Positions 45,432 to 52,398 of a DNA stretch of 59,593 nt are shown here, piece after piece. The stretch covers positions 1 to 59,593 of the forward strand of contig JAPLFY010000044.1 in assembly GCA_026390435.1 (NCBI GenBank), read 5' to 3'. The notes under the pieces are model-generated. The model made no database searches. It was not told where the DNA came from and saw only the letters and a list, made by a program, of their open reading frames with translations. This DNA is from Pseudomonadota bacterium. GTDB taxonomy: Bacteria; Bdellovibrionota_B; Oligoflexia; Oligoflexales; CAIYRB01. The translations under genes were made by a program, and so were the position numbers. How positions within the stretch are numbered: position 1 is the first letter of the stretch; each line of letters starts with the position of its first letter.

Positions 45432-46766
45432 TCACTTGCCTAAAGTCTCGAGAAACTTGGTATGAACCGCACCCTTTTGGAACTGTTCGTTAGCCAGTAA
45501 GCGTTCGTGGAAGGCGATATTCGTTCGTATACCGTCCACCTTCATCTCAGCTAGGGCACGGCGCATCCGCTGCATACACTCCTCGCGGTCGCGCCCCGTA
45601 GTGATCAGCTTAGCAATCATCGAGTCGTACTGGCTAGGCACCGTATAGCCTGCATAAACCATGCTATCTATGCGAACGCCGGGTCCACCTGGTTCATGGT
45701 AGGCAGTGATCTTACCGGGCCAAGGAGCAAAGGTCGTCGGGTCCTCGGCATTGATCCGACACTCCATGGAGTGACCTGTGATCTTGACCTGATCAGGAGT
45801 GAACGATAAGCGCTCGCCCTGAGCAATTCTGATCTGTTCCTTGACCAAGTCAATGCCGGTCACTTGTTCTGTGACCGTGTGCTCAACCTGCACCCTAGTA
45901 TTCACTTCCATGAAGTAAAACTGGCCATCTTCATCGAGGAGAAATTCAGCGGTGCCAAGCGACACATAACCGACAGCTTTAGCTAAGCGGAGGGCCGCAT
46001 CGCCAATGCGCTGCCTCAGCTCAGGCGTCATGACTGGGCTTGGGGCTTCCTCTACCAGTTTTTGGTGGCGCCTTTGAATCGAGCAGTCGCGCTCACCAAG
46101 GTGAGCATAATTCCCGTGTTTATCCGCGACTAATTGGATCTCAATATGGCGCGGACGCGCACAGTAGCGCTCGATAAAGCAGTCTGGGTTACCAAAGCCA
46201 GCCTGGGCCTCGACCTGCGCCAATTGAAATTGGCGCGACAAGTCTTCGTCCCGCGTCACCACCTTCATTCCGCGACCACCACCGCCCGCCGCGGCCTTGA
46301 TGATCAGCGGATAGCCAATTTGCTTGGCGATAGCGAACGCCTCTTCGTCGGTACGCACTACCCCGCTGCTGCCCGGCAGCATCGGGACGTTTGCACGCGC
46401 CGCCAAGGCACGGGCCTCGACTTTGTTACCGAGCGCAAAGATGTGCTCCGGATCGGGACCGATAAAGTTGATTTTGTACTCGCGGCAAATGCGAGCAAAT
46501 TCCGCATTTTCCGACAAAAAGCCGTAGCCGGGGTGGACCGCATCGGCCCCCGAGACTTCGACAGCACTCATGACCGATGGAATTCTGAGATAGCTTTGCA
46601 CGCTAGGACCAGGCCCGATGCAGATGCTTTCATCTGCCAGCTTAGCATGCAGTGAATCGCGGTCCACTGTCGAGTGGATCGCGACTGTCTTGAGCCCCAT
46701 CTCGCGGCAGGCCCTGATGATACGCACGGCTATCTCGCCACGGTTGGCAATGAGTACTTTTTTCAT
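45432..46766 (-). CDS. accC: Acetyl-CoA carboxylase biotin carboxylase subunit
   Basis: A 444-residue ATP-grasp enzyme, standard length for AccC. Visible hallmarks: MKKVLIANRGEIAVRIIRAC, HPGYGFLSEN, the glycine-rich ATP lid AAAGGGGRGMKVV, ERDCSIQRRHQKLVEEAPSP, and FMEVNTRVQVEHTVTE with catalytic residues. It carboxylates biotin on AccB using ATP and bicarbonate, the first step of fatty-acid synthesis. It starts eight bases after accB. Seven bases separate its stop from the convergent amine-oxidase stop. Confidence 0.98.
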   Translation of the reverse strand: MKKVLIANRGEIAVRIIRACREMGLKTVAIHSTVDRDSLHAKLADESICIGPGPSVQSYLRIPSVMSAVEVSGADAVHPGYGFLSENAEFARICREYKINFIGPDPEHIFALGNKVEARALAARANVPMLPGSSGVVRTDEEAFAIAKQIGYPLIIKAAAGGGGRGMKVVTRDEDLSRQFQLAQVEAQAGFGNPDCFIERYCARPRHIEIQLVADKHGNYAHLGERDCSIQRRHQKLVEEAPSPVMTPELRQRIGDAALRLAKAVGYVSLGTAEFLLDEDGQFYFMEVNTRVQVEHTVTEQVTGIDLVKEQIRIAQGERLSFTPDQVKITGHSMECRINAEDPTTFAPWPGKITAYHEPGGPGVRIDSMVYAGYTVPSQYDSMIAKLITTGRDREECMQRMRRALAEMKVDGIRTNIAFHERLLANEQFQKGAVHTKFLETLGK

Positions 46767-46774
46767 CTTTAGCG

Positions 46775-47245
46775 TTATTCCAACACGAATAGCGGTTGAT
46801 CGAACTCTACAGGCTGCTCATTATCGACCAAGATTTCCTTGATCACACCGTCAAATTCCGCCTCAATTTCGTTCATCAACTTCATCGCTTCGATGATGCA
46901 GAGGGTGTCACCCTTTTTCACCCGCTTGCCGATCTCGACAAAACTGTCGGAGCCCGGTGAGGGTGAGCGGTAGAAAGTGCCCACGAAAGGCGACTTGAGG
47001 ACGCGACCGCTATACGCGGGTGCTGCAGGTTTACCACCTACTGTGGCCGCAGCGGGTGCACCCTGCACAGCCGCGCCAGCAGCTTGCTGCATATAGGCCG
47101 CAGGGGACATTACAGCCATGCCTGCTGGTACACCTGGAGCCGTTGCGGTCACGCTGATGCGTAACGTCTCGTCTTCGACTTCAAGCTGATGAATACCGTG
47201 GCGACGCACTAACTCAATCACTTTTTCTAGTGTTTCAAGCTTCAT
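46775..47245 (-). CDS. accB: Acetyl-CoA carboxylase biotin carboxyl carrier protein
   Basis: A 156-residue protein with the AccB plan: an N-terminal helix ([20 protein letters not shown]), an Ala/Pro-rich flexible linker (35-78), and a C-terminal biotinyl domain with [14 protein letters not shown], where K122 is biotinylated, presumably by the BirA half of the fusion at 24875-26539. The typical thumb segment [15 protein letters not shown] is present. It lies three bases after efp and eight before accC, a conserved gene order in many bacteria. Confidence 0.97.
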
Positions 47246-47248
47246 AAG

Positions 47249-47809
47249 TTATTTCACCTTTTCAACGTATTCACCGGTACGCGTATCGATTTTTAGCATG
47301 TTACCTTCGGCGATGTGGAAGGGAACCGTCACGACTAGGCCAGTTTCCATGACGGCTGGTTTGCCGCCGCCGCCAGAGGTGTCGCCCTTGATGTTGGGCT
47401 GAGTTTCCCGCACGCTCATTTCCACAAAGTTAGGCAAGGCCACAGTTACCGGCTTACCTTTGTAGTAGGTCACGTTAACAACACTGTTTTCGATGATGTA
47501 GTCTTTAGCGTCGCCAATCTCATCATTCGTCAACTGAACTTGGTCGTAGCTCTGCTGATCCATGAAGGTGAAGTTTTCACCATCGTTGTAGAGATATTGC
47601 ATGGCCTTAGTTTCGACATCAGGGATACCGACCTTATCACCCGACTTAAAGGTCGCTTCGATCACCCTTCCCGTCTCTAAATTCTTTAACTTCGTCCGCG
47701 TGAAAGCCGCGCCTTTACCTGGGTTGACGTGCTGAAAGTCGACGATCGTCCACGCCTGGTCCTTGAAATCAATCTGCACGCCTTTTTTGAAATCGGTGGT
47801 AGAGTACAT
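47249..47809 (-). CDS. efp: Translation elongation factor P
   Basis: A 186-residue product with the three OB-like domains of EF-P. The modifiable lysine at the tip of domain I is K32 in NPGKGAAFTRTKLK, matching the E. coli PGKGQAF loop. EF-P relieves ribosome stalling at polyproline runs, some of which occur in neighbouring proteins such as the lipoprotein at 11294-12451 and the RomR-like receiver protein. No modifying enzyme (EpmA, EarP) is in the window. It is first in the efp-accB-accC transcript. Confidence 0.97.
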   Translation of the reverse strand: MYSTTDFKKGVQIDFKDQAWTIVDFQHVNPGKGAAFTRTKLKNLETGRVIEATFKSGDKVGIPDVETKAMQYLYNDGENFTFMDQQSYDQVQLTNDEIGDAKDYIIENSVVNVTYYKGKPVTVALPNFVEMSVRETQPNIKGDTSGGGGKPAVMETGLVVTVPFHIAEGNMLKIDTRTGEYVEKVK

Positions 47810-47901: not shown

Positions 47902-48753
47902 TCAACTATCGTCACCGCTGGCTTTGAGTACGGGGCGCAGGCGCCCCCTCGGCGGCCACGCTGGAGACGGCCGAGAACGCTCCGAGCTCGGCTGCAAATG
48001 CGCCTCGCTGCTCGGCGGCGTCCCGATTTGCGGCGATGCTAGCAACACGTGCCGCAGCACGCGTCTCAGTGGACCACGAAAGTGTCCAAGGTCGACAAAG
48101 CGTTCGCGCTGAATGCCTTCACCGGGGCGCCTTATTGCCCCGCCCCCCGTGGCGTGGACGACATCGCCCCGCGTCAGCGTGTCTTGCATGACAGCGTTTG
48201 GGGCCGACGAACCATGCCCCAACTCGCTACGTCCCAGCGCCACGCGCGGAGGATGAACACGTTCCAGCAGCACCACGTGACCGTCATATACCAATAAATC
48301 GCCAGGGACGGCCCGCCTTGGTTCGTCGCCGACATCGACTAACTGATACCGCTCTTGCAGAGATGCCCCAGACAGGCTCAGCATCCGCGCAGTCTCGAGA
48401 TAAGGATATGGCAGACCAGCCGTGCCAAACACAAGAGAGGTAAAATGGCTGCAATCCAGACTACACTCGCGGCAAATCGCACACTCCTTGAGCCTCTGGG
48501 CTGCCGCAGGACGACGCGCGGTAAGGCACTGATTACAAGCCTCGCAGCTGGCACTGTCGCCAAGCTGATGCCCCCCGTAGACGTAAGACACTTGAGCCTC
48601 GTCGAGCAACTTACTGGCGACTTGCAACACAGTCTGACGCCTTGCAGCGACAGGATCTGCCTTTGCTGACGACGTTTCTGCAGTAGCTATGCCACTACCT
48701 AACGCTACCAACCCGATGGCTATACCTAGCAACATGGCTAGACGTGGTATCAT
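47902..48753 (-). CDS. Exported NlpC/P60-like cysteine hydrolase with Cys-rich insertion
   Basis: A 283-residue protein with a signal peptide (hydrophobic 5-21, GIATAE). The NlpC/P60 core is visible: SYVYGG (56-61), DCSHFTSLVFG with nucleophile C101, PGDLLVYDGHVVLLE with H159, and VVHATGGG with H200 as third residue. Such enzymes cut peptidoglycan stem peptides. Between YGG and the nucleophile sit two CxxCxxC clusters, C70/C73/C76 and C91/C94/C97, not normal for the family and suitable for binding zinc or an iron-sulphur cluster. A Pro/Arg/Ser-rich tail ends the protein. It is divergent from the VTT-lipase gene, with starts only about 25 bases apart. Confidence 0.8.
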   Translation of the reverse strand: MIPRLAMLLGIAIGLVALGSGIATAETSSAKADPVAARRQTVLQVASKLLDEAQVSYVYGGHQLGDSASCEACNQCLTARRPAAAQRLKECAICRECSLDCSHFTSLVFGTAGLPYPYLETARMLSLSGASLQERYQLVDVGDEPRRAVPGDLLVYDGHVVLLERVHPPRVALGRSELGHGSSAPNAVMQDTLTRGDVVHATGGGAIRRPGEGIQRERFVDLGHFRGPLRRVLRHVLLASPQIGTPPSSEAHLQPSSERSRPSPAWPPRGRLRPVLKASGDDS

Positions 48754-48777: not shown

Positions 48778-50262
48778 TTGGGTCGCTTATCGGCCTCGCA
48801 GCCTGTCATCTGGGGGCGCATCCTTCGCGCCAATACGGCCACCCTATTGAGCATCACTCCTCATTTTAAACAGATTCGCGCCGTGCTCGCTGTTGAATTG
48901 GCGATCTTAGCGTGCCTATTTGTTTTTGCCTTCTTCTTCTGGCATCAGTTCTGCAGTGACTCTCTAGACTCTTGTTTGGCGGGAGATCAGGGCCCGCGCG
49001 TGATCACCTTTCTTATCCTGTCGGCAATTCGTCCCTTTGTCTTCACGCCACTGGCCTTTATGGCCATACTCAGCGGCAAAGCCTTTGGTCCATGGCTAGG
49101 CACACTGCTCACCGCTGTTGGTAGTTTACTGTCTTGCCTGAGCGTCTTTGGCATCGGCAAACTACTCGGGCGGCGTTACACCAAACCGTGGCTGAGCAAC
49201 AATCTTCCCGCGACGTTTAAATTCATTCGGTCACAAGATTATAAGGCGGTTTTCGCGGCGCGATTGTTGCCCGTCATGCCGTTTGACGTCCTAAGTTTTC
49301 TGTTCGGCGCCTTCGACTTTCGCCTGCGCAGTGTCGCCATAGCCTCCTTTATTGGCGTTTTGCCCGAGGCCTACCTGTACGCCAAATTAGTGGATCCGGC
49401 AGAAACAGCGATCGGATCAACGATGACTCTGCTCGAGCTCACCTCCGTGAGCATCATCGTACCACTTCTAATTTTTGAATTCATAAGCCGTAAAAATGGC
49501 AGCGGCATGTGGCAACGACTCAAAGCGGTGCTGGCCGAAATCCGCTACGAAGCGCGCACCAATAACGACATCGTTAAGCGCCGCGTCTTTGATCCAGATC
49601 AGACACCGGTGCTGCTATTATATGGCTTCTTTTCCTCGCGCCGCACGATGACCCAGCTCGAGAGGCATTTAACATTGCGTGGCCATCAGGTGATGTCGTT
49701 CAATCTGGGCGGACTCCTCGGAACCTTCTTTACCGCGGACATAGTCGAAACGGCGAACTTCATCGATTACAAAATCAAACGGCAATTTGAACGCCACGGT
49801 TTCAAAAAAATTCAAATTGTTGCCCACTCCAAAGGTGGTCTCGTAGCCCTGTGGTGGGCTCTTAAACTGGGCGGCCACCGCTACTGCGACAAAATCATCA
49901 CTATGGGAACGCCCTATGAAGGGACATGGCTAACGTATTTGGCGCTAGTCACCCCCCTCGGCTTTCTCTGGCGCGATGTCGGCCAAATGCGCCCTGGGTC
50001 GGCCTTTCTCAGCGACCTCAAAAACGCCGAAGTACCTTCAACTCTTAAGATTTACTGCGTCCATTCCAGGCGTGATCAGATCGCCAAAGACGGCGAGGGG
50101 GTATTCCATCCGACGCCGCCTAGCCCGCAAGTGACCGCGATACCCATGCATGACATTGGTCATTTTGAGATGCTCTACCACCCCGAGATTGCTGATAAAG
50201 TCGCGGACTTACTGCGTACCAACGAAAGCCAAGCCGTGGCTGCAGCCGCAGCTTGCCAATAG
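48778..50262 (+). CDS. VTT/SNARE-associated (DedA/TVP38-type) membrane domain fused to alpha/beta-hydrolase lipase
   Basis: A 494-residue protein with a TTG start and no clear ribosome site, so the start is uncertain (later TTG/GTG codons are possible). Residues 35-240 form a VTT membrane domain: FMAILSGKAFGPWLGTLLT and ARLLPVMPFDVLSFLFGAF. Residues about 270-480 form a lipase-like alpha/beta hydrolase: VLLLYGFFSSRRTM, nucleophile S351 in VAHSKGGL, D433 and H462 (DIGHFEML). VTT proteins of the DedA/TMEM41 class move phospholipids; a cytosolic lipase on the same chain suggests coupled lipid transport and hydrolysis. Function is inferred from the two halves. Confidence 0.82.
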   Translation: MGRLSASQPVIWGRILRANTATLLSITPHFKQIRAVLAVELAILACLFVFAFFFWHQFCSDSLDSCLAGDQGPRVITFLILSAIRPFVFTPLAFMAILSGKAFGPWLGTLLTAVGSLLSCLSVFGIGKLLGRRYTKPWLSNNLPATFKFIRSQDYKAVFAARLLPVMPFDVLSFLFGAFDFRLRSVAIASFIGVLPEAYLYAKLVDPAETAIGSTMTLLELTSVSIIVPLLIFEFISRKNGSGMWQRLKAVLAEIRYEARTNNDIVKRRVFDPDQTPVLLLYGFFSSRRTMTQLERHLTLRGHQVMSFNLGGLLGTFFTADIVETANFIDYKIKRQFERHGFKKIQIVAHSKGGLVALWWALKLGGHRYCDKIITMGTPYEGTWLTYLALVTPLGFLWRDVGQMRPGSAFLSDLKNAEVPSTLKIYCVHSRRDQIAKDGEGVFHPTPPSPQVTAIPMHDIGHFEMLYHPEIADKVADLLRTNESQAVAAAAACQ

Positions 50263-50305: not shown

Positions 50306-50707
50306 ATGTACCAGTCAGCAAACACGAGATTAAATCAGACTCCCCGTGAGGAACGTTACCCATACGACGGGCAGGTGCGAGTCATGGTCAATTTTGATCC
50401 GTGGCGCCTCGTGGTTACTCTGCGCGGTTTGAATTTATCGAGAACTGGCCTCTGCGCCCAATTGCCCGCGGCCACTAGTAACGAGACACGCCGTGAGAAT
50501 GTCGATGCCGAAGCACTTTTGGCCGAAGGCGATCTGTACGACATTCAACTGGACCATGACACCTCTCACCTACCCGCCCCACTGGTCAGCGGCCGCCTAG
50601 TCAGGCGCGCACGGACTAATGCGGGTTGGGAGTTGGCCTTCACCTTCACAGCTAGTGACGTCGGTTTGCTCGGCCTGGTCCACGAGATCAAACGAGACTC
50701 TCCATGA
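50306..50707 (+). CDS. PilZ-domain protein
   Basis: A 133-residue single-domain protein. It has REERYPYDGQVRVMV near the start, offering the RxxxR-like arginines, then NLSRTGLCAQL, matching the D/NxSxxG motif, and beta strands ending in WELAFTF. PilZ domains bind cyclic di-GMP; the RxxxR spacing is slightly irregular, so ligand binding should be treated as likely rather than certain. GGAGGCCGATCGCTT precedes the ATG. Its stop overlaps the panP start as ATGA, coupling translation. Confidence 0.8.
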   Translation: MYQSANTRLNQTPREERYPYDGQVRVMVNFDPWRLVVTLRGLNLSRTGLCAQLPAATSNETRRENVDAEALLAEGDLYDIQLDHDTSHLPAPLVSGRLVRRARTNAGWELAFTFTASDVGLLGLVHEIKRDSP

Positions 50708-52398
50708 CCACGATTGGCCAAGGAACGGCTACGAAATCCGAAGTCATGAAGCACGCAGAGGCCAACCTCGACACTATGCGTCGGGTGTTTACGCTGCCGG
50801 AGAACGAGCAATCGACGCTGGTTCGCCTCGACCGCGAGATTTCGGAAAACTTACTTGGCTTTCTCAAAGACCGCGTCATTGCTGGCGACATTGCTCCGGC
50901 CAATCTCGAGCGCGACTTCCAAGAAACAAAACTACCCGAGCATCCTCTGTTCGTTTCAGAGCAGGTGGATTTCCTTTTAAATAAAGTAGTGGCGCAGTCT
51001 GTGCGCACATCCTCGCCGAGCTTTATCGGTCACATGACCTCAGCTCTCCCATACTTTATGATGCCGCTGGCCAAGATCATGATGACCTTGAACCAGAACG
51101 TCGTAAAGATCGAGACGTCGAAAGCCTTCACGCCACTGGAGCGTCAAGTCATAGGTATCCTGCATCGCCTCGTTTATGAGCGTGATGATGCTTTCTACGA
51201 TCAATGGACGCAGAGCTTTCAGCAGTCGCTTGGAGTCTTTTGCTCAGGCGGTACGATTGCGAATGTAACAGCACTCTGGTCAGCTCGTAACCGGATGCTG
51301 GGGCCGCGCGGTGATTTTGCTGGTGTCGCTGTAGAAGGTCTGCCGGCAGCACTTCGGCACTATGGCTACGACGATCTTGCCGTCATCGTATCGAAACGTG
51401 GCCACTACTCATTGCGTAAGACCGCCGACCTGCTCGGTCTAGGTCAAAAGCAATTGCAGGCAGTAGCCATCAACGCGAAGCATCAAATAGATGTCGACGC
51501 ATTGCGACAAAAAATTGCCGAACTGAAGAGCCGACGCATCGGCGTGATGGCCATCATTGGTATCGCTGGTGCGACGGAAACCGGCAGCGTTGATCCACTA
51601 AGCGAGATGGCAGATATCGCGGCTGAGGCGCAGGCGCATTTTCATGTGGATGCAGCTTGGGGTGGCCCGACGCTGTTTTCTGAGCGCTATAAGCACATAC
51701 TCAAAGGCATCGAACGTGCAGATTCTGTAACGATCGACGCTCACAAACAACTCTATGTGCCAGTGGGCGCTGGCATGGTCATCTTTAAAGACCCAGCCTC
51801 ACTAAACTCTGTCGAACACCACGCCAATTACATCATCAGACAGGGTTCCCGCGATATTGGTAAGCATACTCTCGAGGGCACGCGTCCCGGCATGGCGATG
51901 CTCGTACATTCTGCGCTACACATCATCGGCAAGCGTGGCTACGAACTACTCATAGATTTAGGCATCGGTAAAGCGGGCCAATTTGCCAAGATGATCAAAG
52001 CTACCCAGTGCTTTGAAGTCGTCACGGAACCGCAAACCAACATCCTGACCTATCGCTACGTGCCGGCCGTTGCTAAGCCCATATTTACGCACGGAACCGA
52101 CGAGCAGAAACGGGCAGCAAACGAGCTACTTAGCGAGCTCACCGAGTCGGTCCAAAAAGAACAGCGCACCGCTGGCAAGACCTTTGTCTCGCGGACGAGA
52201 TTGGAAAGTGCAGCTCAAGGCGGCCAACTACTCACAGTATTTAGAGTAGTGCTCGCTAATCCGCTGACTACGCGCCAGATCCTTGCGGATGTTCTGGAGG
52301 AACAAACTGGTTATGGTGAGCGTCTGGTTAAAGTAGAGTTTGAGCAGAGATTCCTCGCACTGGGCGGCAGCATCGCGACCGCGGAGTCCGGCACATGA
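50704..52398 (+). CDS. panP: PLP-dependent decarboxylase, probable aspartate 1-decarboxylase
   Basis: A 564-residue fold-type-I PLP enzyme of the group II decarboxylase family. The PLP lysine is K348 in TIDAHKQLYVP, with D316 in HFHVDAAWGG and SGGTIANVTALWSAR binding cofactor and substrate. Length and the ending resemble PanP, the aspartate decarboxylase used by some Gammaproteobacteria to make beta-alanine for pantothenate in place of PanD. Glutamate decarboxylases are the alternative. It overlaps both neighbours by four bases: PilZ upstream and pabA downstream. Confidence 0.85.
   Translation: MTTIGQGTATKSEVMKHAEANLDTMRRVFTLPENEQSTLVRLDREISENLLGFLKDRVIAGDIAPANLERDFQETKLPEHPLFVSEQVDFLLNKVVAQSVRTSSPSFIGHMTSALPYFMMPLAKIMMTLNQNVVKIETSKAFTPLERQVIGILHRLVYERDDAFYDQWTQSFQQSLGVFCSGGTIANVTALWSARNRMLGPRGDFAGVAVEGLPAALRHYGYDDLAVIVSKRGHYSLRKTADLLGLGQKQLQAVAINAKHQIDVDALRQKIAELKSRRIGVMAIIGIAGATETGSVDPLSEMADIAAEAQAHFHVDAAWGGPTLFSERYKHILKGIERADSVTIDAHKQLYVPVGAGMVIFKDPASLNSVEHHANYIIRQGSRDIGKHTLEGTRPGMAMLVHSALHIIGKRGYELLIDLGIGKAGQFAKMIKATQCFEVVTEPQTNILTYRYVPAVAKPIFTHGTDEQKRAANELLSELTESVQKEQRTAGKTFVSRTRLESAAQGGQLLTVFRVVLANPLTTRQILADVLEEQTGYGERLVKVEFEQRFLALGGSIATAESGT

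Follow-up and report, generated by a model that had tools for sequence, protein, structure and literature searches.

Two CxxCxxC clusters before the catalytic cysteine in an order-wide family of NlpC/P60-like exported hydrolases

The window, i.e., the whole stretch of 59,593 nucleotides that was analysed, encodes on its minus strand a diverged cysteine peptidase of the NlpC/P60 group with a probable Sec signal, in which six cysteines, arranged as two CxxCxxC clusters, lie between the YGG and DCS motifs. The protein belongs to an order-wide variant of NlpC/P60 that is undescribed in the libraries and papers searched. The assignment to NlpC/P60 was supported by the analysis, and the cleavage of peptidoglycan itself is presumed. 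The clusters probably serve, on a modest balance of the evidence, as three disulphides stapling a helical hairpin beside the active site, rather than as ligands of a metal. NlpC/P60 enzymes must be prevented from cutting the wrong substrate; six extra cysteines conserved across the order like the catalytic triad represent a testable case of disulphide-controlled maturation of a wall hydrolase.

The gene and its product

The features of the gene are as follows:
47902..48753, minus strand: exported NlpC/P60-like hydrolase of 283 aa, paralogue A (ORF translation and homologues)
48679..48753, minus strand: Sec-type signal peptide (residues 1–25), likely cut after ATA (by eye)
48457..48570, minus strand: 38-residue segment (residues 62–99) between YGG and DCS, a predicted helical hairpin (alignment and AlphaFold)
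48526..48546, minus strand: first cluster, C70xxC73xxC76, within predicted helix 1 (invariant in 37/37 rows; model helix 34–47)
48463..48483, minus strand: second cluster, C91xxC94xxC97, in predicted helix 2 and the turn following it (invariant in 38/38 rows; model helices 51–57 and 59–62)
48448..48456, minus strand: DCS motif (residues 100–102), with nucleophile C101 starting the catalytic helix (invariant in 38/38 rows; model helix 68–78)
48277..48279, minus strand: catalytic H159 (GHVV), invariant in 38/38 rows
48154..48156, minus strand: third catalytic residue H200 (VHATG), invariant in 39/39 rows

Numbering in the model of paralogue A equals the residue number minus 33. The YGG motif occupies residues 59–61. 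Translation gives cysteines C70, C73, C76, C91, C94 and C97, together with nucleophile C101, and no others; residues S98, L99 and D100 separate C97 from C101, and the positions, spacing and coordinates reported for all seven in the first-pass annotation proved exact. The N-terminus has a hydrophobic core of 2.76 over 12 residues and no twin-arginine (Tat) motif; the signal peptide and its cleavage after ATA were judged by eye, without a predictor.

Fold and membership in NlpC/P60

Unlike typical NlpC/P60 enzymes, the window protein is itself too diverged for a match to the Pfam family PF00877. With E-values of up to 0.1 allowed, 35 of 38 aligned homologues gave a match to this family, and in the genome search its curated cut-off was exceeded by several homologues, including the paralogue from the same genome. 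A sequence search of solved structures gave nothing significant, and PHROGs and NCBIfam gave weak matches only.

AlphaFold models of paralogues A and B have pLDDT values of 88.7 and 92.7, respectively. In Foldseek, the model of paralogue A matched RipB, RipA, MAP1204 and RipD with probabilities of 0.96–1.0, at E-values of only 0.009–0.05, and the model of paralogue B matched NlpC B3 of Trichomonas (probability 0.97). Matches to eIF5A-like folds were of low probability and were taken as noise. In both models the insertion is predicted as a helix, a turn, a second helix and a short helix, followed by the catalytic helix, which C101 opens in the model of paralogue A. The invariant D100-C101-S102, H159 and H200 provide the cysteine, the histidine and the third residue of the triad, and the predicted structures conform to the papain-like NlpC/P60 fold. 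The first-pass reading of the gene as an NlpC/P60 hydrolase whose nucleophile is immediately preceded by a double CxxCxxC insertion was borne out.

Distribution and conservation of the family

Homologues of the window protein were found in 28 of 56 genomes related to that of the window. A profile search of 58 genomes of the phylum returned the identical 28 and one weak match in a genome of the sister order (G054, E 2.5e-4), which was not counted as a family member. All 28 genomes belong to the order of the window's genome and are spread across seven of its families. A contig scan for spread beyond the phylum, for which peptides were taken from the window protein alone, yielded two loci only, and no family match was found in the plasmids, phages and viral contigs searched.

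The window protein was aligned with 37 homologues of 30–95% identity. The six cluster cysteines are present in every row covering them (37/37 or 38/38), down to approximately 30% identity, and their invariance equals that of the catalytic C101, H159 and H200; the pattern is not a product of chance. Residues Y57, G60, G61, D100, C101, S102, D152, H159, H200, R234 and H235 are likewise invariant in the 38-row alignment. Mean identity at the non-cysteine positions of the insertion is 41%, as against 55% for the whole domain, and the dN/dS of the window gene relative to its nearest relative is 0.038/0.349. Between the two clusters lie 12 to 18 residues, depending on the homologue, whereas the CxxCxxC spacing is constant, and the second cluster contains CPxC in 24 of 38 rows. 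Beyond the nucleophile no homologue has a cysteine, and those located before YGG belong to the signal or the pre-start region.

Homologues without the six cysteines, named in advance as the finding that would speak against the proposal, were sought, and none was found within the family. Further NlpC/P60 proteins of the phylum were inspected that lie outside the family (e.g., at loci L072, L074, L075 and L078); in these the clusters are absent and the loops are short.

Export and redox environment

The N-termini of the family are Sec-like and hydrophobic, and a Tat motif was found in none of 37. Genes of DsbA-like proteins are present in 56/56 genomes of the phylum. VKOR is encoded in 53/56, in most cases within a long open frame (approximately 400 codons) in which DsbA is matched as well, and DsbB is rare by comparison (4/56). 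In the genome of the window, a fusion of VKOR with DsbA (thioredoxin) was annotated by Pfam on contig C74 (L118:348-1622). The presence of DsbA-like and VKOR-DsbA genes in these genomes makes an oxidizing periplasm likely.

Possible roles of the cysteine clusters

The first-pass annotation gave first place to an iron-sulphur cluster or two zincs. This preference was not upheld in view of Sec-like export with no twin-arginine motif, the helical hairpin, the count of six cysteines plus one, and the DsbA-like and VKOR-DsbA genes. Disulphides are favoured over an iron-sulphur cluster because the protein appears to be exported without Tat, has six cysteines in addition to the nucleophile and coexists with a VKOR-DsbA oxidase in nearly all genomes. 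The count fits three disulphides and a free nucleophile, and a variable length between the clusters combined with a fixed spacing within them is expected of the tip of a hairpin.

In the proposed mechanism, the loop before the nucleophile of an exported peptidoglycan endopeptidase would have been expanded into a 38-residue alpha-hairpin with twin CX2CX2C clusters. After export by Sec, the VKOR-DsbA oxidase would join both helices by three disulphides, putatively C70-C97, C73-C94 and C76-C91, and C101 would stay free as the nucleophile. In the model these pairs would be nested around the turn; their index sum is constant at 101 in model numbering, a value close to double that of the midpoint of the predicted turn. 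The pairing is not derivable from covariation, since the six cysteines never vary. The stapled hairpin would fix the catalytic helix and, possibly, one wall of the substrate groove. Folding may in this way act as a checkpoint, such that the hydrolase becomes competent only after it has left the reducing cytoplasm, the site of wall-precursor synthesis.

A structural zinc, with one ion on four cysteines or a two-zinc six-cysteine cluster, could hold the same hairpin, in the periplasm or in a reduced precursor only; it is a doubtful yet reasonable candidate. It is consistent with the strict CxxC spacing, with CPxC in the second cluster, which is also known in zinc sites, with weak, non-significant zinc-finger matches in single rows and with the binding of zinc in vitro by reduced small Tims with twin CX3C (PMC3759932). 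However, the first CxxCxxC is predicted inside a continuous helix, unlike zinc knuckles, and the disulphide-forming system of these genomes would compete for the thiols. By analogy with small Tims, the zinc and disulphide readings may be two states of one protein.

A regulatory role of the hairpin is unlikely. As a redox or metal switch, it would keep the hydrolase inactive in the cytoplasm, with thiols reduced or zinc-bound, until the periplasmic VKOR-DsbA armed the enzyme or, later, shut it off; if true, this would be a new way to regulate peptidoglycan cleavage, with wall cutting tied to the periplasmic redox state. Reversible pairing of the nucleophile itself with C97, four positions before it, or with another cluster cysteine, so that the over-oxidized enzyme is off and the reduced one is on, is rather improbable: the C97-x3-C101 spacing is invariant and the clusters lie near the nucleophile in sequence, but identical spacing is expected from a hairpin merely abutting the catalytic helix.

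An iron-sulphur cluster sensing iron or oxygen is very improbable, although C91xxC94xxC97xxxC101 has the spacing of the [4Fe-4S] ferredoxin motif and Fer4_9 weakly matches 5/38 rows (best E 0.0056, not significant): the fourth ligand would be nucleophile C101, the first cluster is predicted by AlphaFold to be helical, and exported iron-sulphur-cluster proteins usually take the Tat route, of which the N-termini bear no motif. A ferredoxin-type 4Fe-4S site was also rejected on its motif, as the fourth cysteine, which is the nucleophile, is followed by S instead of P.

Paralogues and gene neighbourhoods

The phylogenetic tree splits the family into paralogue A (25 rows, including that of the window) and paralogue B (13 rows) with support of 100/100. 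They are two ancient paralogues, in both of which the six cysteines are kept, and both are present in several genomes, the window's own among them. In the window, paralogue A is surrounded by the following genes:
47249..47809, minus strand: efp (elongation factor P), next gene downstream of paralogue A
46775..47245, minus strand: accB (biotin carboxyl carrier protein)
45432..46766, minus strand: accC (biotin carboxylase)
48778..50262, plus strand: VTT (TVP38/DedA-like) domain fused to alpha/beta-hydrolase, divergent neighbour

Gene efp follows paralogue A in 15/15 larger loci examined, with gaps of ~0.7 and ~1.5 kb in L065 and L070, respectively; accB and accC are located downstream in 12 of the 15, and the VTT/alpha-beta-hydrolase gene adjoins paralogue A in 13 of 15. 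This efp-accBC neighbourhood says little about function. Farther along the window, at 50306-52398 (plus strand), the gene of a PilZ-like small protein overlaps the beginning of a gene for a PLP-dependent decarboxylase; several relatives have retained the two genes together.

Paralogue B is located directly upstream of murI, encoding glutamate racemase, in 13/13 loci, sometimes overlapping it; the assignment of murI is based on Pfam in L023 and L031 and, for the remaining B loci, on sequence clustering. In L023, genes of an LpoA-like (LppC) protein and a class A penicillin-binding protein follow on the opposite strand. Among the 13 B loci, the LpoA-like gene is present in at least eight and a PBP1A-like gene in at least six, several loci ending early. 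NlpC/P60 enzymes cut next to D-glutamate. Paralogue B is always beside the gene of the racemase making the D-glutamate that these enzymes recognize, and because this product of murI adjoins the cut site, the B locus, with its link to murI, LpoA and PBP1A, supports a putative peptidoglycan role of the family. The L023 locus (L023:4301-12467) comprises two divergent genes, one for a GluQRS-like tRNA synthetase and one for an AIR-synthase-family protein, then NlpC-B, murI and a methyltransferase gene.

Comparison with known systems

The motifs YGG and DCS and the Cys-His-His triad are common to the family and the gamma-D-Glu-diamino-acid endopeptidases RipA/RipB, Spr/MepS and MAP1204, and the model of paralogue A is similar in fold to RipB, RipA and MAP1204. 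Known NlpC/P60 enzymes have roughly 6–12 residues between YGG and DCS, in contrast to 38 with six invariant cysteines in the family. Literature queries on insertions in NlpC proteins (CxxC, zinc, iron-sulphur or cysteine-rich), several of them so narrow that papers may have been missed, returned no such protein; the initial remark that no described NlpC/P60 member is alike holds for the libraries and papers searched.

In Ssp1, an effector of the NlpC/P60 superfamily, a disulphide lines the active-site cleft (PMC3852654). Ssp1/Tae4 is a cysteine peptidase active in the periplasm with a disulphide at the active-site cleft, as is proposed for the family (PMC3852654), but has a single disulphide, C146-C150, in a C-terminal subdomain and no twin cluster before the nucleophile. 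Ssp1/Tae4 proteins are secreted effectors, whereas the family belongs to a conserved housekeeping locus.

Small Tims are mitochondrial chaperones with a twin CX3C hairpin, first called a zinc-finger motif, which holds zinc when reduced and disulphides when oxidized (PMC3759932). They differ from the family in the CX3C spacing, in having two disulphides and in that their hairpin is not inserted in an enzyme. At the level of helix positions, AlphaFold predicts a helix-turn-helix with matching cysteine clusters in both paralogues. The predicted insertion resembles, as an analogy only and with no homology claimed, the helix-loop-helix of small Tims, whose twin cysteine clusters are joined by disulphides.
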